Source: Methylomicrobium agile (GTDB taxonomy: Bacteria > Pseudomonadota > Gammaproteobacteria > Methylococcales > Methylomonadaceae). Taken from it: a stretch of DNA of 64,000 bases. The notes beneath the pieces are model-generated. The model was not told the origin of the DNA. It saw nothing but the letters and a program-made list of their open reading frames with translations, and ran no database searches. Positions 3 to 61,852 of the stretch are shown here, in pieces. The stretch lies in assembly GCF_000733855.1 (NCBI RefSeq), contig NZ_JPOJ01000001.1, forward strand, positions 1,922,001-1,986,000, read 5' to 3'. The position numbers and the translations under genes are program-made. The first letter of the stretch is position 1, and every line of letters begins with the position of its first letter.

Positions 3-3000
3 GAGCTGGGCAGCGGTGCTTATGCGGTCGACGGATTCGGTCAGGTGACCGTGAATGCCGCCGAGGCGGTGAAGGGCGCGGGTCAGGTGCTGGACCCCGC
101 GACCGGCAACAGCAGCCTGTCGGCGCCCGGCACCTGGCGCGTCGACGGCGACCTGGCCCTGAACGCCGGACATTTCATCGGCGACGCAGGCGCCACGACC
201 GCTATCGACGCCACGGGCCATCGGGTTTCATTGGCTTCGCCGGCCGGCGCGGAAGGACTGGCTTCGGGCGGGCTGGGCGTCCGCTGGTCGATCACGGCCG
301 ATGCGATTGACAGCAGCGGCCGTTTCGATCTGCCTTCCGGGATTCTGGAGCTGAATGCGCTGACCGGCAATCTGGATTTGAACGCGGGCACTTCGATCGA
401 CGTGTCCGGCCGGACCGTCCCGTTCGACACACTTACTCGCTTTTCGCCCGCGGGCACCGTGATGCTGGCTTCGGCGCTCGGCAACGTCGCTTTGGCCGGC
501 GGAGCCGAAATCCGGTTGGCCGGCGCGGCGAGCGACGGCGAGCAGGCCGGCGACGCGGGCCTGCTCGATGTCCGGGCGGCCCGAGGGCAATTTTTCTGGA
601 ACGGTCTGGTCAGCGCGTTGGGCGGCGAACTGGCGAATGCCGAACAGCGTGCGGGCAGTCTGCGCCTCGACGTGAAAACTTTCGGCGACGGCGGCTTTTC
701 GGACCTGAACGCCAAACTTGCGGCGGCCGGATTTGCCGAGGAAGTGTCTCTGCGCCAGCGCAGCGGCGACGTGAACATCGCCGCCGGCGATACCGTGGCG
801 GCGCGCCAATTCAATCTTTCGGCCGACCAGGGCAAGGTGAGTCTGAACGGAACGCTCGACGTGAGCGGCAGCCAGGGCGGCGACGTCACGATTTACGGTA
901 GAAACGGCATCGCGCTCGGCCCTTCCGCCCGCATCGACGCGAGTTCCTCCGCTTCGGGCGCGGAAGGCGGCCGCGTCACGCTGGATACCGTGCACCGGGA
1001 CGACGCCGGCAGCGGTCTCCTGGATCTGGCCGGCGGCGCGATCGAGCTGGCCGGCGGCGAAGGCGGGCCGGGCGGCTCGCTGCATCTGCGCACCGGCCGG
1101 GATGCGGACAATACGGTCAACGTGGCCGCGCTCCATACCGCGATCACCGGCGCGGACCCCGACCGGGCCGTGCTGGAGGCCGCGCGCGTTTACGACGGCC
1201 AAACGACGATCACCGCCGCGAACATCGCGTCCTGGAAGGCGGATACCGCCGATTTCATGGCGCATGCGCCCAGCTTGCAGGATTTCTCCGGCGCCGGCAT
1301 CGCCCTGCTGCCGGGCCTGGAAATCCGCGGCGAAAACCTGACGCTGGCGGATACCTGGGATCTGATCGACTGGCGCTACGGCGGCGGCAATGCCTTGCCC
1401 GGCTTTTTGACCCTCAGAGCCGGCAACGACCTGAACGTCAACGCCTCGCTGACCGACGCTTTCGCGACCGATTCGATTCCGGGCCAGACCAACCGGGTCT
1501 ACCAGGACATGCTGCAAGCGGGCAAGTCCTGGAGCTATAACCTGATCGCGGGCAACGACGTGAATCTGGCCTCGTCCTATCTGGCGCGGAATCCTTTGAC
1601 GCCGAATTCGAGCACGCCGGTCAAAACCCAGGTCAAGGTGCGGACCGGCACCGGTTCGATCGCGATCGACGCAAGCCACGACATCCGCTTCGTCAGCGAT
1701 CCGTCCGACGCGACGGCGGCCGCGGCGGTTTACACGATCGGCACGACCGCCAAATACACCCGGGATCAATTGCTGAACGGCGAAGTGCCCGGCGTGCCTG
1801 CGCGCCTGGCCGGCGAGAGCGACGCGGATTACCTGAACCGCCTGGACCCTGCGTTGATGGACGAGCTGCTTCGCTTCGGCTATCTGGACGAGACCCGGAT
1901 CGGCACGCTGTTTCAAAAAGCCGAATTCCCGACCCAGGGCGGCGACATCCAACTGCGCGCGGGCGGCGACATCGACGGCGTGAATACCGGGCAGAAAATG
2001 ACCGACTGGCTGGTCCGGAGCGGCACGCTGGCGGACAACAACACGCCGACGCTGTGGGGCATCAACGTCAGCGGCGACCGCAGCAATCAGACCGGCAGCA
2101 CCCCTGCCGCCAAAGGCATCCGCAACTTCAACCAGAACGTCGGCGCGCTGGGCGGCGGCAACGTCACCGTCGAAGCCGGCGGCAATATCCGCAATCTGTC
2201 GGTGATGATCCCGACCACCGGCAAGCCGCTCGGCACGGTCGGCTCCGCGCCGAACCAATGGCTCAAGAACGGCATGGCGGTCAACGGCGGCGGCGATCTG
2301 GCGGTGACGGCCGGCAACGACATCGTCGGCGGCGAATTTTATACCGGACTCGGCACCGCCGCGCTGAAGGCCGGCGGCAGCGTGGCGGCCAACGCCGCCG
2401 GAAAAGGCGCGGTATTCGAACTGGGCGACGCCCGCTTCGCCATTCAGGCGCGCCAGGACATCAACCTGGGCGGCGTCTACAACCCGACCGTAACGAAACA
2501 GACGCAGTTGGTCGGCGGCGAGTCGCGGTTTTTCACCTATGGCGCCGGCAGCGCGGTCGAGTTCTTGTCGACCGCGGGGAACATCCTGTTCCAGAACAAC
2601 GCCGGCACCGGCTTCGAGTATTCGGTTTATCCCGGCACCGTCAAAGCGGCCGCGCTGTCCGGCGATATTTCGATCAACAAATCGATGACTCTGTTTCCGT
2701 CCGTCCAGGGTCAACTGGAGCTTTTGGCCGGCAGGAACGTCCGTTCTTCGGCGGTCGCCGGCGAGACGGTGGCGGTGAACATGTCCGATGCGGACGTGTC
2801 GCTGCTGCCGGACAGCCTGTCGCCGGCCCGGTCGCTGGAAGGCAGCCTGAAGGACGGCCTGATCAGGGCGCAGGAGCGGCTCGATCCGTTCAGCCCGGTG
2901 GCGAACATCATTCATGCCGCGACCCCGGTGCACCTGAACAACGGCAGCAAACCGGCGGTCGTGGCCAATCTTGGCGACATCGCCTTCGCGCCGGGCGCGC

Positions 3001-4334
3001 AGGTGATTTTCTTCCTGCCGAAGGCTTCCGAATTCGTCGCGGGCCGGGACATCAAGAATTTGAGCTTGTCGGCGCAGAATCTGACGAGCGGGGACGTTAC
3101 GCGGATTCAGGCGGGCCGCGACATCGCCTTCAATACCCAGATCAGTCCGGACGGGGTCGTGCTGGCCAATCCGAACAAGATCGAGGTGGGCGGACCTGGC
3201 CAATTGCAGGTGCTGGCGGGCCGCAACATCAACCTGGGCAGTTCCGCCGGCATTCAGACGATCGGCAACATCGTGAATCCGGCCTTGAGCCAGAATGGGG
3301 CCTCGATCAACGTGCTGGCCGGGCTCTCCGACGCGATCGATTTCGACGGCTTCATCGAACGCTATCAGGCGCAGCCCGAATACCGCGCGGCATTGCAGGC
3401 GCTGGCGGGGCTCGGCGAAGGCGAGCAGCGCGAGCATCTGGACGTGTTTCTGAAGGTGCTGTTCGAGGAAATCAAGCAGTCGGCGGCCGCGGCGGCCGCC
3501 GCCCCGACCGGCGAACGCGCGAAGCTTTATCAGCGCGGTTTCGATGCCATTAAAACGTTGTTTCCGGGCGATCAATACGCCGGCGACCTCAGCCTCGTAT
3601 TCAGCCAGATCAAGACGCTGGACGGCGGCGGCATCAACCTGGCCGCGCCCGGCGGCAAGATCGACGTCGGGCTGGCGGGCCAGCTCGCAGGCATCCGCAA
3701 GGCCGCGGACGAGCTTGGCATCGTGGTGCAGCAGGAAGGCGACCTGAACGCGCTGATCGAAAAGGATTTCAACGTGAACCAGTCGCGCGTATTCACGCTG
3801 AGCGGCGGCGATATCACGGTCTGGTCGTCGAAAGGCAGCATCGACGCCGGCAAAGGCGCCAAGTCGGCGATCGCGGCGCCGCCGCCGGTCACGATGGTCG
3901 ATGAGAAGGGCAACATCGTCACGATCTTTCCGCCGATCGTGTCCGGCAGCGGCATCCAGGCGATCGGCGACGGCCAGGTCACGCTGGCGGCGCCGCAGGG
4001 GATCGTCGACGCGGGCGAGGCGGGCATCAGCGGCGGGCGGATCGTGATCGCGGCGACCGCGGTGGTCGGCGCTTCCAACATCCAGGCTTCCGGCGGCACG
4101 GTCGGCGTGCCGACCGCGCCGCCGGCGCCGGTAGTGCCTTCGGGCGCGGACAGCGCCGCGGCCAGCGCGGCGAAATCGGCCACCGACAGCGCCGAGAACA
4201 GCGGCGGGCAGGATGACGACGAGCAAAAGAACGGCCGGAAGTCGGTCGTCAGCATGATCAGCACCGACGTGGTCGGCTACGGCAACTGCTCGGTCAACGA
4301 TATCCGCGAAGGCAAGCCGGGCTGCGGGATTTAA
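3..4334 (+). CDS. Filamentous haemagglutinin-type exoprotein, C-terminal part (5' end outside window)
   Basis: The frame is already open at base 3 with no convincing start, so this is the last 1443 residues or so of a longer protein. The sequence is a long run of Gly/Asn/Asp-rich strands of the type 'L.AG.D....' and 'GGDI.V.A', typical of the right-handed beta-helix of two-partner-secretion exoproteins. The stretch around bases 1255-1470 (LPGLEIRG... then W-x-L-x-x-W-R-Y-G-G) resembles the DUF3739 region of filamentous haemagglutinin family proteins. The tail is low-complexity Ala/Ser/Asp/Lys-rich and ends in a short segment with two cysteines. The expected role is a secreted or surface adhesin; no toxin domain is visible at the C-terminus. 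The ExbB-ExbD-TonB-porin genes follow on the same strand, which suggests a functional link. Family placement is from recalled motifs and repeat character; the N-terminal TPS signal cannot be seen. Confidence 0.8.
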   Translation, partial: ELGSGAYAVDGFGQVTVNAAEAVKGAGQVLDPATGNSSLSAPGTWRVDGDLALNAGHFIGDAGATTAIDATGHRVSLASPAGAEGLASGGLGVRWSITADAIDSSGRFDLPSGILELNALTGNLDLNAGTSIDVSGRTVPFDTLTRFSPAGTVMLASALGNVALAGGAEIRLAGAASDGEQAGDAGLLDVRAARGQFFWNGLVSALGGELANAEQRAGSLRLDVKTFGDGGFSDLNAKLAAAGFAEEVSLRQRSGDVNIAAGDTVAARQFNLSADQGKVSLNGTLDVSGSQGGDVTIYGRNGIALGPSARIDASSSASGAEGGRVTLDTVHRDDAGSGLLDLAGGAIELAGGEGGPGGSLHLRTGRDADNTVNVAALHTAITGADPDRAVLEAARVYDGQTTITAANIASWKADTADFMAHAPSLQDFSGAGIALLPGLEIRGENLTLADTWDLIDWRYGGGNALPGFLTLRAGNDLNVNASLTDAFATDSIPGQTNRVYQDMLQAGKSWSYNLIAGNDVNLASSYLARNPLTPNSSTPVKTQVKVRTGTGSIAIDASHDIRFVSDPSDATAAAAVYTIGTTAKYTRDQLLNGEVPGVPARLAGESDADYLNRLDPALMDELLRFGYLDETRIGTLFQKAEFPTQGGDIQLRAGGDIDGVNTGQKMTDWLVRSGTLADNNTPTLWGINVSGDRSNQTGSTPAAKGIRNFNQNVGALGGGNVTVEAGGNIRNLSVMIPTTGKPLGTVGSAPNQWLKNGMAVNGGGDLAVTAGNDIVGGEFYTGLGTAALKAGGSVAANAAGKGAVFELGDARFAIQARQDINLGGVYNPTVTKQTQLVGGESRFFTYGAGSAVEFLSTAGNILFQNNAGTGFEYSVYPGTVKAAALSGDISINKSMTLFPSVQGQLELLAGRNVRSSAVAGETVAVNMSDADVSLLPDSLSPARSLEGSLKDGLIRAQERLDPFSPVANIIHAATPVHLNNGSKPAVVANLGDIAFAPGAQVIFFLPKASEFVAGRDIKNLSLSAQNLTSGDVTRIQAGRDIAFNTQISPDGVVLANPNKIEVGGPGQLQVLAGRNINLGSSAGIQTIGNIVNPALSQNGASINVLAGLSDAIDFDGFIERYQAQPEYRAALQALAGLGEGEQREHLDVFLKVLFEEIKQSAAAAAAAPTGERAKLYQRGFDAIKTLFPGDQYAGDLSLVFSQIKTLDGGGINLAAPGGKIDVGLAGQLAGIRKAADELGIVVQQEGDLNALIEKDFNVNQSRVFTLSGGDITVWSSKGSIDAGKGAKSAIAAPPPVTMVDEKGNIVTIFPPIVSGSGIQAIGDGQVTLAAPQGIVDAGEAGISGGRIVIAATAVVGASNIQASGGTVGVPTAPPAPVVPSGADSAAASAAKSATDSAENSGGQDDDEQKNGRKSVVSMISTDVVGYGNCSVNDIREGKPGCGI

Positions 4335-56001: not shown

Positions 56002-56020
56002 CGCCAGCAAGGTAGGATGG

Positions 56021-56704
56021 GTAGGGCGGATTCGCCGCCAGGCAATCCGCCATCGCTTTGAAGCCTGTCGGCGTTTTGCTATCGCGAAAACGCCCTACGG
56101 CATGGATCGAGCCGATCGGGAAACAGATCCCGCAAGGCCGGGTAGGGCGGATTCGCCGCCAGGCAATCCGCCATGGCTTTGAAGCCTGTCGGCGTTTTGC
56201 TATCGCGAAAACGCCCTACGGCAAGGATCGAGCCGATCGGGAAACAGATCCCGCAAGGCCGGGTAGGGCGGATTCGCCGCCAGGCAATCCGCCATGGCTT
56301 TGAAGCCTGTCGGCGTTTTGCTATCGCGAAAACGCCCTACGGCATGGATCGAGCCGATCGGGAAACAGATCCCGCAAGGCCGGGTAGGGCGGATTCGCCG
56401 CCAGGCAATCCGCCATCGCTTTGAAGCCTGTCGGCGTTTTGCTATCGCGAAAACGCCCTACGGCAAGGATCGAGCCGATCGGGAAACAGATCCCGCAAGG
56501 CCGGGTAGGGCGGATTCGCCGCCAGGCAATCCGCCATGGCTTTGAAGCCTGTCGGCGTTTTGCTATCGCGAAAACGCCCTACGGCAGGGATCGAGCCGAT
56601 CGGGAAACAGATCCCGCAAGGCCGGGTAGGGCGGATTCGCCGCCAGGCAATCCGCCATGGCTTTGAAGCCTGTCGGCGTTTTGCTATCGCGAAAACGCCC
56701 TACG
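56021..56704 (+). repeat. Tandem array of family A: six copies of a 121-base unit
   Basis: Units start at 56021, 56142, 56263, 56384, 56505 and 56626, exactly 121 bases apart; the last lacks the linker. Each is a 79-81-base family A element (GTAGGGCGGATTCGCCGCC ... TTTTGCTATCGCGAAAACGCCCTAC) plus a linker (ATCGAGCCGATCGGGAAACAG then ATCCCGCAAGGCCGG). Units differ only at a few places (GCATGG/GCAAGG/GCAGGG; CATCGC/CATGGC). Spurious 81-83-residue frames run through it. The near identity shows recent expansion. Confidence 0.95.
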
Positions 56705-56867
56705 GTACTTAACGGCATGGATTATAAACGCCGTCCCACTCAGGGAGCGCCAGTTCCCTACTTGTAGATAAATCCCCCTAGCCGGTGGGGAAGACATCAG
56801 CTTTCTAACAACTCTGACCTTGCTTTTTGGCGTATCTTCACCTAAACTTAAGGATGTGGAAGAGCTT

Positions 56868-56997
56868 GGCCAATGATGGCCAATGATGGCCAATGATGGC
56901 CAATGATGGCCAATGATGGCCAATGATGGCCAATGATGGCCAATGATGGCCAATGATGGCCAATGATGGCCAATGATGGCCAATGATGGCCAATGAT
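56868..56997 (+). repeat. Thirteen perfect copies of a 10-bp tandem repeat upstream of the collagen-like gene
   Basis: GGCCAATGAT repeated 13 times without error, then a diverged copy (GGCCGATGTT). It ends 77 bases before the collagen-like start. The 10-base period is near one helical turn. The segment 56705-56867 between the two arrays shows no gene. Confidence 0.97.
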
Positions 56998-57074
56998 GGC
57001 CGATGTTAGTACAGGCGGCCCTCATTTTTCATGAGCATCACATCATCGAAATGCGCAATTATTGAGGGAAATGA

Positions 57075-58484
57075 ATGAAAACAAAATTTACCAAGTCGCT
57101 TTTGGCATCCGCCATTCTGGCTGCGAGCGTATCATCGGCGGAAGCCGTGCCGATTAAAACCTATGAGGGCGCCTGGAATTCCACGATTAAATACAAAGTG
57201 GGCCGCGCAGTGAGCTATGACGGCAAACTTTACGTTTCCGTCCTGAACGCGCCGCGTAACCCAAATGTTAACAAAACACCTAACGCCACCGAAAATTCCC
57301 AATTTTGGCAATTAGTCGATTTACAAGGCAGCGGCGGGACGGAGGGAGCGACAGGCGCCACCGGGGCTACGGGCGCCACGGGCGAAGCAGGCCCGATAGG
57401 ACTGCAAGGCCCGGCCGGTGCCACGGGTGCAGCAGGCCCAGCCGGCGCCACGGGCGCGGCAGGCCCAGCCGGTGCCACGGGCGCGGCAGGCGCTACCGGT
57501 GCCACGGGCGTGGCGGGCCCAGCCGGCGCCACGGGCGCGGTAGGCGCTACCGGTGCCACGGGCGCAGCGGGTCCAGCCGGCGCTACCGGCGCCACCGGTG
57601 AAGCGGGTCCGGCCGGCGCCACGGGCGCAGCGGGCCCGGCCGGTGCCACGGGCGCGGCAGGCGCAACCGGCGCCACGGGCGCGGCAGGTCCAGCCGGCGC
57701 CACGGGCGCGGCGGGCGCAACCGGCGCCACGGGCGCGGCAGGTCCAGCCGGCGCCACGGGCGCGGCAGGCGCAACCGGCGCCACGGGCGCCACGGGCGCG
57801 GCAGGTCCAGCCGGCGCCACGGGAGCGGCGGGCGCAACCGGCGCCACGGGCGCGGCAGGCCCAGCCGGCGCCACGGGCGCGGCAGGCGCTACCGGTGCCA
57901 CGGGCGCGGCCGGAGCGACAGGCGCTACTGGTGCCACGGGCGCGGGCGCTACCGGAGCAACGGGCGCGACCGGTGAAACAGGCCCAGCCGGCCCAACAGG
58001 AGAAACAGGCCCAACCGGCCCAGCGGGTGACATTGGCCCAACAGGCGGCGTAGGCCCAACCGGCCCAACCGGTGCCGGTATTGAAGCATTCGGTTATTTC
58101 TATTATGAGTCGGCGTATGAAGAAAATGTTGTTGTCGATGAAGGAGTTGACGTTCCTCTTTTCGATAACGGGCCGGTGCAGGGAATTACTCATACCGCCA
58201 GCAACGCATTTGTGTCCATAACCTCGACCGGCACCTATAAGATCGATTATAAAGTCAATCTCACGGACGGTCTCGGATCCGTAATAGCGATCACAGTCAA
58301 CGGCATGGCTAATCCGTCAACGTCTGTACCCGTCCTGGCTGTACCAGGCCAAGTTTCCGGCACGGCGATTTTGGAGCTGAATGCAGGCGACAAAATCACG
58401 CTCCGTAATTTTTCGTTGATACCATTTACTTTGAGTGACGAGGCCGGGGTCGGTGCGCAGTTGAGCGTCTTGCGCTTGGATTAA
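57075..58484 (+). CDS. Collagen-like surface protein with chitin-binding-like N-domain and BclA-like C-terminal domain
   Basis: 469 residues. Signal peptide [24 protein letters not shown], then a 60-residue module ([27 protein letters not shown]...FWQLVDLQG) resembling a carbohydrate-binding type 5/12 fold. About 83 Gly-X-Y triplets span residues about 86-335, mostly GAT-GAA-GPA and later GPT-GET, so very Thr-rich. The last 130 residues ([10 protein letters not shown]..., [44 protein letters not shown]) look like the TNF-like trimerising domain of BclA-type exosporium proteins. Expected: a trimeric filament on the cell surface. A glycosyltransferase lies downstream, and in BclA the triplet threonines are glycosylated. 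The repeats invite copy-number change. Confidence 0.88.
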
Positions 58485-59528
58485 GAGCCGGAGCTGTAAC
58501 GGCGATTGCGCCGAACGGCACAAAATCGATCCGTCCATGTCGATATCCGTATCGGCGTGCGGCGGACGTTGTGCCGGTCGCGGCAAGTCGTGTAGGTCGG
58601 GCACGCGCTTTTCGTGCCCGACATTTCCCACGCCTTGAAAAGTGACAGGGTTTTAGACTCGCGCCATATTCCGAAGCATGATCGCCACATGGACGTCGGG
58701 CTACGCGGTTGAACAATTGTTTTTCTGGTTCTGTCCAGAGTCGTGTAGTCGCGTAGGTCGGGCACGCGCTTTTCGTGCCCGACATTTCCCATGCCTTGAA
58801 AAGTGACAGGGTTTTAGACCCGCGCCATATTCCGAAGCATGATCGCCACATGGACGTCGGGCAACGATAAAACCGTTGCCCGACCTACGCGGTTGAACAA
58901 TTGTTTTTCTGGTTCTGTCCAGAGTGGGAAGTCGCGTAGGTCGGGCGCGCGCTTTTCGCGCCCGACATTTCCCATGCCTTGAAAAGCGACGGGGTTTTAG
59001 ACCCGCGCCATATTCCGAGGCATGACCGCCGCATGGACGTCGGGCAACGATAAAACCGTTGCCCGACCTACGCGGTTGAACAATTGTTTTTCTGGTTCTG
59101 TCCAGTCGCGTAGGTCGGGCGCGCGCTTTTCGCGCCCGACATTTCCCATGCCTTGAAAAGCGACGGGGTTTTAGACCCGCGCCATATTCCGAGGCATGAC
59201 CGCCGCATGGACGTCGGGCAACGATAAAGCCGTTGCCCGACCTACGCGGTTGAACAATTGTTTTTCTGGTTCTGTCCAGTCGCGTAGGTCGGGCACGCGC
59301 TTTTCGTGCCCGACATTTCCCATGCCTTGAAAAGTGACAGGGTTTTAGACCCGCGCCATATTCCGAAGCATGATCGCCACATGGACGTCGGGCAACGATA
59401 AAACCGTTGCCCGACCTACGCGGTTGAACAATTGTTTTTCTGGTTCTGTCCAGAGTGGGAAGAACCCACTTGCGTTTATCGGGAGGCAGGCCGGTTTCCG
59501 GCCTGCCGCATGTACTACAGGAGGTTTT
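58485..59528. other. Spacer filled by the family E array
   Basis: Between the collagen-like gene and the glycosyltransferase. Apart from the five-unit family E array nothing is coding; overlapping minus-strand frames here are repeat translations. Confidence 0.7.
58592..59461 (+). repeat. Family E tandem array, five units of about 161-183 bases
   Basis: Units begin with GTAGGTCGGGC at 58592, 58753, 58936, 59110 and 59284. Each has a hairpin (GTCGGGCACGCGCTTTTCGTGCCCGAC or the GCGCGC variant), a central part (CATTTCCCATGCCTTGAAAAG...GCCATATTCCGA), a second hairpin with CCGACCTAC, and the linker CGGTTGAACAATTGTTTTTC then TGGTTCTGTCCAG. Units 1, 2 and 5 read 'cacgcg...cgtg', units 3 and 4 'cgcgcg...cgcg'. 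Unit 1 has lost its second hairpin. Confidence 0.9.
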
Positions 59529-60674
59529 ATGGCCCGTATCGGCCTGTGTATGATCGTCAAAAACGAAGCGCCGATCATCCGCCGCTGTCTGGAAAACGTG
59601 CAGCCTTTGGCGGACTACGTGCTGATCGTGGACACCGGTTCCACGGACGGCACGCAAGCGGCGATTCGCCGGTTTTTGCATGAACGGTCCGTGCCCGGCG
59701 AAGTGATCGAGGAGCCGTGGCGCGACTTTGCCTATAATCGCAGCTTTGCGCTGCAAAAGCTCCGGGAGCATCGGGACATTGACTATGGCCTGATGATCGA
59801 TGCCGACGAGGTGCTGGTCTATGAGCCCGGCTTCGAGCCGAAGCGTTTCAAGCAGGGGCTGACCCTGGACCTTTACGATATCGAAACCCGCTACGGCAAT
59901 ATCAGTTATACAAGGCCGCAGTTGTTCAGCAATCGGCTGGACTTTTGCTACAAGGGCGTCTTGCATGAATATCTGGACGGCCCGCCCCCGTTGTCCCGCG
60001 CGCGCGCCAGCGGCTTTTTCAACCGTCCCTTGCAGGACAGCGCGCGCAGCCATAACCCCCAAAAATTTCAGGACGATGCCCGTTTGCTGGAAGCCGCCCT
60101 GGCCGAGGAAACCGATCCGTTCCTGATTTCCCGCTATACCTTTTACCTGGCGCAAAGTTATCGCGACAGCGGCGATCACGCGCCGGCGCTGCAGGCTTAC
60201 CTGCGCCGCGCAGGGCAGGGATTCTGGCGGGAAGAGGTCTTTGTCAGCCTGCTCAATGCCGCCCGCCTCAAAGAGCGTTTAGGGCATGAGGCGGCCGAGA
60301 TCGTACAGGCCTTCATGGCGGCGCATGAAAGTCTGCCCACCCGCCTGGAAGGGCTGCATGGCGCGGCCCGTATCTGCCGGATCCACAATTTATACCAGCA
60401 AGGCTACATTCTGGCGCGGCATGCCTTGCGTCTGCCGCCCCCCGCCACCGGCTTGTTCGTCGAAGCCTGGATAGCCGATTACGGCTTGCGGGACGAGTAT
60501 GCCGTACTGGCCTACTGGACGGGACATTACCGCGAAACGTTCGATATCTGTCTGCAATTGTTGAAGGAAAACCGGGCGCCCGCCAACTACCGGCCGCGCC
60601 TGCGCCAAAATGCCGAGTTCGCCATAAGCAAATTAAGCCAGCCCGAATTGGCCAAATTGATTCCGGCAATCTGA
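59529..60674 (+). CDS. Family 2-type glycosyltransferase with helical-repeat C-terminus
   Basis: 381 residues from ATG 59529 behind GGAGG. The N-terminal GT-A fold reads MARIGLCMIVKNEAPIIRRCLENV, VLIVDTGSTDGTQAAIRRFL and the metal-binding D91-A-D93 in LMIDADEVLV. Residues about 190-381 form TPR-like helices (FLISRYTFYLAQSYRDSGDHAPALQAYLRRA..., FVEAWIADYGLRDEYAVLAYWTGHYRETFDICLQLL). Proteins of this layout glycosylate proteins or cell-surface polymers in the cytoplasm. It is the only gene beside the Thr-rich collagen-like protein, so O-glycosylation of that protein is a reasonable inference. The sugar donor is unknown. Confidence 0.87.
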   Translation: MARIGLCMIVKNEAPIIRRCLENVQPLADYVLIVDTGSTDGTQAAIRRFLHERSVPGEVIEEPWRDFAYNRSFALQKLREHRDIDYGLMIDADEVLVYEPGFEPKRFKQGLTLDLYDIETRYGNISYTRPQLFSNRLDFCYKGVLHEYLDGPPPLSRARASGFFNRPLQDSARSHNPQKFQDDARLLEAALAEETDPFLISRYTFYLAQSYRDSGDHAPALQAYLRRAGQGFWREEVFVSLLNAARLKERLGHEAAEIVQAFMAAHESLPTRLEGLHGAARICRIHNLYQQGYILARHALRLPPPATGLFVEAWIADYGLRDEYAVLAYWTGHYRETFDICLQLLKENRAPANYRPRLRQNAEFAISKLSQPELAKLIPAI

Positions 60675-60991: not shown

Positions 60992-61852
60992 TCAACTGTA
61001 ACGGGTTTGCCGCTCGACCGTCGCCAGCCGGCGCAAATTGCCCAGCACCTGCGTCAGTACCGCCGAATCGGTATCGAGCGGATATGCCATATACGACGGC
61101 AGTTTGAATTCCGGACTGCAGGGGACGCGGTGCAGGCGCCTTGCCCAGACGAAGGATTCGGCCATCCGGATCGGCAGGAAACACGAGCCGCCGTTGGACA
61201 AAATCAACTGAATGCCGAGCCAGCCGATATTGACCACTTGCGCGGGTCGCTCCATATCGGGATAGAAGCCGCTGTGCTGAGCGTAAAACTCGGGCCCCCA
61301 ATCGACATAGATATAGTCGTCTCCCGGCCAGGGGTCGTTCGGCCGGGTAGTCAGCAGCACCAGCGTCTCGTCGAATAAATGTTCGACTTTCAGCCCCGGG
61401 CTGTGCTGCGGGGCGTACATCATCCCGATATCCACGGTGCCCTCGATCAGCCGCCGCATCAAATCGTCCTCAAAGCCGATGTCGCAGCGCAGCGACACAT
61501 CCGGCAACGACGTGCGAATCTCGCCGATCCAGCGCGGCAGCATCGTTTCCCACAGCGCGATGCGCGCGCCGACGGTAATGCTGGCCCGAAAGCGGCTGGG
61601 CAGGCCGATATCGTGTTTCGCCTGCTCCAGCGTCAACAACATCGATTTCGCATGCTTCAGGAACCGCCTGCCCTGCTGGGTCAAATGCGCCCCGGACCGG
61701 TTGCGCACGAACAAAGGCACCCGCAGATACTCTTCCAGGCGCTGGATGCGCATGCTGACGGTGGATTGCGTCACGTAGAGGCGGTTGGCCGCCTCCTGAA
61801 AGCTGCCGTTCGCCGCTACGCTCAAAAAAGTACGGATCTGTTCGATATCCAT
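60992..61852 (-). CDS. LysR-family transcriptional regulator
   Basis: 286 residues. The N-terminal winged helix-turn-helix MDIEQIRTFLSVAANGSFQEAANRLYVTQSTVSMRIQRLEEYLRVPLFVRN is typical, and the LysR substrate-binding fold follows (SITVGARIALWETMLPRWIGEIRTSLPDVSLRCDIGFEDDLMRRLIEGTVDIGMMYAP). The effector is unknown. It is divergent from the lipoprotein gene, with a 189-base A/T-rich gap that should hold both promoters; the usual expectation is that it regulates that neighbour and itself. Confidence 0.93.
   Translation of the reverse strand: MDIEQIRTFLSVAANGSFQEAANRLYVTQSTVSMRIQRLEEYLRVPLFVRNRSGAHLTQQGRRFLKHAKSMLLTLEQAKHDIGLPSRFRASITVGARIALWETMLPRWIGEIRTSLPDVSLRCDIGFEDDLMRRLIEGTVDIGMMYAPQHSPGLKVEHLFDETLVLLTTRPNDPWPGDDYIYVDWGPEFYAQHSGFYPDMERPAQVVNIGWLGIQLILSNGGSCFLPIRMAESFVWARRLHRVPCSPEFKLPSYMAYPLDTDSAVLTQVLGNLRRLATVERQTRYS

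Follow-up and report, generated by a model that had tools for sequence, protein, structure and literature searches.

A threonine-rich collagen gene with a BclA-type head beside a phage-type glycosyltransferase gene in Methylomicrobium agile

A 64,000-nt stretch of the Methylomicrobium agile contig NZ_JPOJ01000001.1 (1,922,001-1,986,000 of the forward strand; hereafter, the window) carries a gene for a collagen-like protein followed by a gene for a GT2-family glycosyltransferase (GT). The pair probably makes a glycosylated trimeric collagen stalk with a BclA-type head, the GT acting as a dedicated cytosolic O-glycosyltransferase of that stalk. The computed basis consists of the domain make-up of the two proteins, the predicted fold of the GT, its invariant catalytic-type motifs, the linkage of its family with collagens elsewhere, and the enrichment of threonine at position Y of the Gly-X-Y triplets of the linked collagens. 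What is new here is that an arrangement like that of SgtA and BclA3 of Clostridioides difficile occurs in a host where it was not expected, and that its enzyme is of the phage type. The source genome codes for LpxC and therefore belongs to a cell of the outer-membrane type, in agreement with an earlier note on this DNA, which had taken the host to be Gram-negative; it also codes for a GspD secretin and has two matches to AMO/pMMO subunit A, which make the host probably a methanotroph.

Domain make-up of the two proteins

The collagen-like protein starts at an ATG directly preceded by a GAGGGA-like Shine-Dalgarno sequence, and its parts are laid out in Table 1. Its stalk matches the Pfam family Collagen (PF01391) with 118 bits (cut-off 27.2). 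Counted without overlap, the stalk has 68 + 15 = 83 triplets, the number given in the earlier note; counted with overlap, the runs span aa 85-291 (69 triplets) and aa 291-335 (15) with one residue in common, giving 84, and Thr occupies Y in 44 of these, so that the description of the repeats as Thr-rich also stands. The C-terminus, which the same note had called TNF-like and BclA-like, matches positions 11-127 of the 128-position BclA_C profile at 73.3 bits (cut-off 38; E 2.2e-20) and, judged by this profile match, is a real homolog of BclA_C. The structure prediction that had been suggested as a check on this head was run with AlphaFold from two sequences and gave no usable model (mean predicted local distance difference test score, pLDDT, 40.8), leaving the Pfam profile as the sole source of the assignment; in a phmmer search of the PDB with the head, the best matches reached only E 0.53 and 1. 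The domain is rare, being found in 3 of 81 relatives and, in a phylum sample of 299 genomes, in 2 over the cut-off and 7 at E 1e-3; three of the weak matches of that sample come without a collagen run. At the N-terminus, the proposed signal peptide is seen by eye and is of the Sec type, and the proposed carbohydrate-binding-like module comes down to a 22-residue match to CBM_5_12 (PF02839), at 20.9 bits below the gathering cut-off of 26.2.

A second collagen of the genome (L008, 5129-6451) has a Gly-Pro-Gln-rich stalk without Thr at Y, preceded by what seems, judged by eye, to be a DNRLRE-like N-terminus. A third collagen match at 342 kb (L003, L009) was rejected as a simple-repeat artefact.

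The GT belongs to the Pfam family Glyco_tranf_2_4 (GT2), and its AlphaFold model (mean pLDDT 96.2) shows a GT-A domain followed by eleven tetratricopeptide repeat (TPR)-like helices at the C-terminus, as foreseen in the description of a GT2-type enzyme with helical repeats. Its start lies most likely at 59529, with AGGAGG at 59519, and not at 59370, where the ATG falls inside a repeat. In 29 sequences, D35, T36, G37, S38, D40, D91 and D93 are invariant, with variation at Thr39 and Ala92. Searched against the PDB, the family profile finds SunS (7msp, E 3e-19), GmaR (22ao, E 3.4e-19) and TPR proteins, and the best fold matches of the model are ThuS and SunS (TM-score about 0.6). The whole-chain rmsd to these two is 10-13.6 Å, so the domain arrangement differs from theirs, and the SunS family model TIGR04195 gives the window GT 27.6 bits against an equivalog cut-off of 350. 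The profile, the modeled fold and the motifs together point to a protein or peptide glycosyltransferase, and by eye its sequence has no transmembrane or signal segment. On a Mesorhizobium ciceri plasmid (L208, 6001-8799), a GT of this kind sits inside a protein of 932 aa whose annotation is GT family 25, the family of the animal collagen galactosyltransferases.

Linkage of the GT family with collagen genes

The best 80 loci from a family-profile scan of named genomes belong, by their record titles, to Rhizobiales, Chlamydiae, Streptomyces, mycobacteria, Acinetobacter, Pasteurellaceae, Burkholderiales, Bacillus and others. At 43 of them, a strict collagen run occurs in the examined flank, mostly within 2.5 kb. 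The flank sides with collagen number 34, 6, 4 and 4 at 0-2.5, 2.5-5, 5-7.5 and 7.5-10 kb (364, 306, 278 and 251 kb of flank examined, respectively) and, thus, the linkage declines with distance inside the same loci. Within 1.5 kb, a run is present at 25/80 family loci as opposed to 0/23 loci of generic GT2-domain proteins in the relatives, for which flanks of about 1.5 kb were scanned with the same detector; a previous version of this control had used a stricter detector and, when redone with the common one, again gave 0/23.

The association is also visible across whole genomes. Among the 81 relatives, all six with a full-length GT have a collagen over the cut-off vs 15 of the 75 others (p = 1.7e-4), and in the phylum sample, this holds for 6/7 carriers of a full-length GT vs 84/292 (p = 0.0035), where two weaker matches to part of the GT (E about 1e-26) were counted as GT-less. 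A strict run near the GT was found in two of the six family carriers, namely, the window genome (G000) and G010, and in four of the phylum carriers, the window genome and G151, G251 and G354, the last three being of one genus; adjacency is weaker than co-occurrence in the genome. The adjacent cases can be tight: in G010, a collagen with a pentapeptide head is followed on the same strand by the GT at a distance of less than 60 bp, and in the Bacillus relative B. marasmi (L160, 33% identity), two collagen genes lie beside the GT.

Threonine at position Y

Collagens within 3 kb of a GT (n = 36) were compared with other sets using one detector for all, the tests being uncorrected for relatedness. 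Their median Thr fraction at Y is 0.72 vs 0.17 in GT-less genomes (p = 6e-7), the latter set consisting of mid-ranked collagens from 15 of 20 loci after five without a strict run were dropped; one of these control collagens reached 80% Thr at Y. Twenty unlinked collagens of GT-bearing family genomes have a median of 0.375 (p = 6e-5 vs the linked ones); both these and the 20 control places were hand-picked from the match lists of the family and phylum searches. Without Streptomyces, the linked median is 0.71 (n = 25, p = 1.5e-6). Within the window genome, the linked collagen has Thr at Y in 44/84 triplets vs 0/41 in the second collagen, which is a different protein. An initial control set of 41 collagens (median 0.10, p = 3e-12) was dropped, having been made of the best PF01391 scorers and with a minimum run longer than that applied to the linked collagens. 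Of its 43 candidate loci, two had been removed, one for belonging to a genome with a GT and the other for lacking a run, and loci of the other GT-bearing relatives and of the same-genus genome G001 were not included.

Variable heads and a sister species

We scanned 35 collagen proteins for their heads, comprising 29 of the 36 linked named ones (seven being left out), the window protein, those of relatives and one plasmid protein, some of them cut by contig ends. BclA_C occurs in four: the window protein, two collagens of relatives that are not beside a GT, and L097, where it is below the cut-off. Tail-collar, pentapeptide, DUF4347 and CBM96 heads are single cases, and the remainder show no other Pfam family. 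The combination that recurs is that of collagen stalk and GT, on which the heads vary. Of the idea of a BclA-like protein with its own transferase, the link of this GT family with Thr-rich collagens is also seen elsewhere, and the BclA head, though real in the window, is not the conserved part.

In the same-genus genome G001, a syntenic collagen with 70 triplets, a Thr fraction of 0.63 at Y and a different head (its 5' end cut by the contig) is followed by the same hairpin that lies before the GT in the window, and then by a frame-broken GT piece from about codon 348 (24 residues, 71% match). Further 3' come a 1,173-aa open reading frame (ORF) absent from the window and the same LysR gene. From this remnant, it can be gathered that the pair is probably older than the species split and that the GT is dispensable in G001.

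Viral relatives

Among the candidates examined in IMG/VR, there are at least 585 relatives of the GT, of which the best 80 (43-55% identity) were kept. In a midpoint-rooted tree, for which both the bacterial and the viral sets were picked by similarity to the window GT and 8 GT sequences interrupted by stops or frame breaks were left out, the window GT groups with 67 viral sequences (clade support 0.995); the next node holds 74 viral and two rhizobial sequences (0.998), and five GTs of same-family genomes lie outside the clade of the window GT. Its exact sister is placed at support 0.35, and its nearest sequence is 1.1 substitutions per site away. A strict collagen run is present at 26 of the 80 viral loci, and at 21, the next gene downstream of the GT, 10-111 bp away, is the collagen-bearing ORF. 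Three such downstream genes were examined, and all combine collagen with a tail collar (one below the cut-off); the phages with a GT and a downstream collagen gene are probably related to each other. With the limit set at 4 triplets, the ORF downstream of the GT bears collagen at 32 of the 80 loci and lacks it at another 32, the remaining 16 having no such ORF. The same fold also appears among predicted viral structures, including those of several giant viruses.

One of the viral relatives, with a 52% identical GT, lies on an inovirus-like contig with a Zot gene downstream (L246, 6001-7104) and, by its sequence, may be a filamentous phage with a candidate protein-glycosyltransferase.

Comparison with described systems

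The closest worked-out case found is SgtA of C. difficile, a beta-O-GlcNAc transferase whose demonstrated acceptors are Thr (and Ser) residues in collagen peptides of BclA3 (PMC7157674), with its gene immediately upstream of bclA3 (PMC7157674). The window likewise has a GT gene beside a Thr-rich collagen gene, 1,044 bp away on the same strand, a likeness known here from gene arrangement and composition. The differences are that SgtA and BclA3 serve a Gram-positive spore exosporium, whereas the window protein has a Sec-type signal in a Gram-negative cell, and that the gene order is reversed. On present evidence and by analogy, the window pair would work like SgtA and BclA3.

With BclA of the Bacillus cereus group, the window protein shares a central Gly-X-Y stalk and a homologous BclA_C head. 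BclA of that group begins with an N-terminal exosporium-targeting leader, in contrast to the window protein, which by eye has no such leader and starts with the signal and the CBM-like module, in a Gram-negative host. The GT resembles SunS, ThuS and GmaR in having a GT-A domain followed by helices, with ThuS and SunS as the best structural and SunS and GmaR as the best profile matches; it differs from SunS and ThuS in its loose full-length superposition and its low SunS family score. The substrates of those peptide S-glycosyltransferases are bacteriocin peptides. GmaR is reported to transfer N-acetylglucosamine (GlcNAc) to flagellin, and its TPR domain has been proposed as the substrate recognizer (PMC9638930). 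Mimivirus L230, a collagen hydroxylase-glucosyltransferase, glycosylates collagen on hydroxylysine through a GT domain related to GLT25D1 (PMC9614988); it resembles the role proposed for the window GT in modifying collagen and differs in its hydroxylysine acceptor and its GLT25D1-related GT. Among the matches listed in open-access PubMed Central, none described a collagen gene paired with a GT gene in a phage or a Gram-negative bacterium, a weak negative with subscription papers lying outside that collection. Two phage papers mention glycosyltransferases together with collagen-like or collagen-repeat proteins and explain the glycosyltransferases by protection of DNA or change of the host surface (PMC10202952, PMC7029224).

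Proposed mechanism

From the evidence above, we infer that the window GT modifies the window collagen, and likewise which sugar it adds and when, how the chain is exported and that it ends up at the surface. While the Gly-X-Y region is still unfolded in the cell, the cytosolic GT would attach a sugar to Thr at Y, with GlcNAc donated by UDP-GlcNAc as the likeliest choice, and the TPR-like helices of the GT would presumably bind the substrate. The modified chain would then be exported by the Sec pathway and trimerize through its head, and the stalk may be displayed on or released from the cell, possibly via a type II secretion system of which GspD would be part.

Alternative explanations

Several findings weigh against this reading. 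The earlier note had named conservation of the GT without the collagen gene as the observation that would speak against it, and this is seen in part. No strict run was found in the examined flank at 37/80 best named loci; contig shortness is not the full cause, since among the 58 loci with at least 2.5 kb of flank on both sides, a run lies within 2.5 kb in 23 and anywhere in 32. Four of the six family carriers (G005, G025, G028 and G034) lack a strict run in 8-16 kb of flank, the phylum carriers G154, G234 and G247 lack one near the GT, and G154, the one in seven, has no collagen match at E 1e-6 at all. On a Citrobacter plasmid (L210, 2915-7191), an autotransporter gene comes immediately before a 31% identical relative, and an arsenic-resistance cluster lies downstream of it. 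Neither of the two nearest viral relatives (L273 and L246) has a strict run in 6 kb of flank, and Thr at Y is less frequent in the collagens of the viral loci (median 0.40, 26 loci). As to composition, the 36 linked loci cannot count as independent, 11 of them being from Streptomyces, and a review (PMC8968730) gives Thr at Y as 31.6% in bacterial collagens overall and 48.3% in those of Gram-positives, so that part of the contrast is general composition. In the window itself, a repeat-bearing gap of 1,044 bp separates the genes, and G001 retains its collagen though most of the GT is gone.

Many of these findings would be expected if the GT acted on another target, such as a different surface protein, lipopolysaccharide or an exopolysaccharide, the collagen neighbor being incidental or one of several substrates. 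The loci and carriers lacking a nearby collagen, the Citrobacter relative and the gap in the window all fit this, as do the 32/80 viral downstream ORFs without even 4 collagen triplets, on account of which viral GTs may act on tail proteins generally. We nevertheless regard this explanation as rather unlikely in view of the distance-dependent clustering with collagens, the Thr enrichment at Y of the linked ones, the peptide glycosyltransferases among the nearest solved folds, and the lack by eye of a transmembrane or signal segment in the GT.

The strongly supported viral clade around the window GT, with the same-family GTs outside it, and the phage collagen genes directly downstream of their GTs, some with tail-collar matches, raise the alternative of a domesticated phage piece: a phage-type GT for virion proteins, perhaps with a tail-fiber-like stalk, used or unused by the host. 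This is partly compatible with a dedicated transferase of the stalk, and as an explanation in its own right, it seems unlikely, for no phage genes were recognized adjoining the locus by eye in the ORF lists, the collagen starts with a signal peptide and ends in a BclA head, and a search of the viral contigs returned no relative of that head; moreover, the placement in the tree suffers from the long branches, the poorly supported sister, the midpoint rooting and the selection of sequences by similarity. Least probable of all is a decaying or dispensable locus, in which the GT is being lost from the genus and the collagen functions unglycosylated, as the loss of nearly all of the GT beside a Thr-rich collagen at the corresponding place in G001 and the repeats between the two genes might suggest, given that the ORF of the window GT is full-length, its motifs are invariant and its fold is predicted confidently, and that the collagen and its head are in open frames.

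Wider implications

Beyond a glycosylated stalk made by the window pair, one may entertain, with chances somewhat short of even, a widespread mobile system: a single family of TPR-bearing GT-A enzymes, spread over many bacterial phyla, phages with tail modules and giant viruses, that O-glycosylates Thr at Y of collagen stalks with freely swapped heads, the window holding a phage-type copy whose substrate, in a methanotroph-like host, is a stalk with a BclA head. If this were true, Thr at Y would in part be an acceptor code, in place of the hydroxyproline of animals, and phages would coat the collagen parts of their tail fibers by glycosylation of Thr at Y. In the papers found, bacterial collagen glycosylation is mainly that of Firmicutes spore coats. 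If the pairing is what it seems, Gram-negatives and phages would own a separate route to glycosylated collagen, and the high Thr content of many bacterial collagens would be partly enzymatic in cause. The gene pair would also be simple enough for expression in E. coli as a source of glycosylated collagen.

Features and surroundings of the locus

Table 1. Coordinates of the collagen-GT locus within the window
Feature	Position	Strand	Basis or remark
10-bp tandem array, TGGCCAATGA x13.9, 99% matches	56867..57005	.	ends 69 bp before collagen start
Collagen-like protein gene, 469 aa	57075..58484	+	ORF list, Pfam, triplet count
Sec-type signal peptide, aa 1-24, ending ...SSAEA	57075..57146	+	by eye from sequence
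N-terminal module, CBM5/12-like; Pfam match aa 33-54	57147..57326	+	below cut-off
Collagen run 1, 68 Gly-X-Y triplets, aa 85-288	57327..57938	+	Pfam and triplet count
Collagen run 2, 15 triplets, aa 291-335, after a 2-residue slip	57945..58079	+	triplet count
C-terminal head, BclA_C domain PF18573, aa 352-468	58128..58478	+	Pfam
Tandem array, 174-bp unit, 4.2 copies, between both genes	58701..59458	.	tandem-repeat scan
Perfect hairpin just 5' of GT, without T tract; also in sister species	59485..59507	+	by eye
GT2-family glycosyltransferase gene, 381 aa	59529..60674	+	Pfam, profile search, model
GT-A catalytic domain; DTGSTD aa 35-40, DAD aa 91-93	59529..60038	+	Pfam, alignment, model
TPR-like helical domain, aa 179-377, 11 helices in model	60063..60659	+	profile search, model, fold search

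The 174-bp unit between the two genes is a dispersed element with 53 matches genome-wide and is probably not part of the collagen-GT system; as the gap of 1,044 bp holds this array, a single transcript over both genes is doubtful. The GT is followed by a LysR-type gene on the minus strand (60992-61852), so that the claim of the earlier note that the GT is the only neighbor of the collagen gene holds at most, and by eye, among surface-related genes. By eye, no hydroxylase gene was noticed beside the pair. Exact 30-mers of the 10-bp array upstream of the collagen gene occur nowhere else in the genome, and the array is possibly an element that varies expression. Further upstream of the same gene lies a 121-bp tandem repeat of 5.7 copies with 98% matches (56019-56705), and at the window start, a 1,429-aa ORF (45-4334) looks filamentous-haemagglutinin-like by eye.

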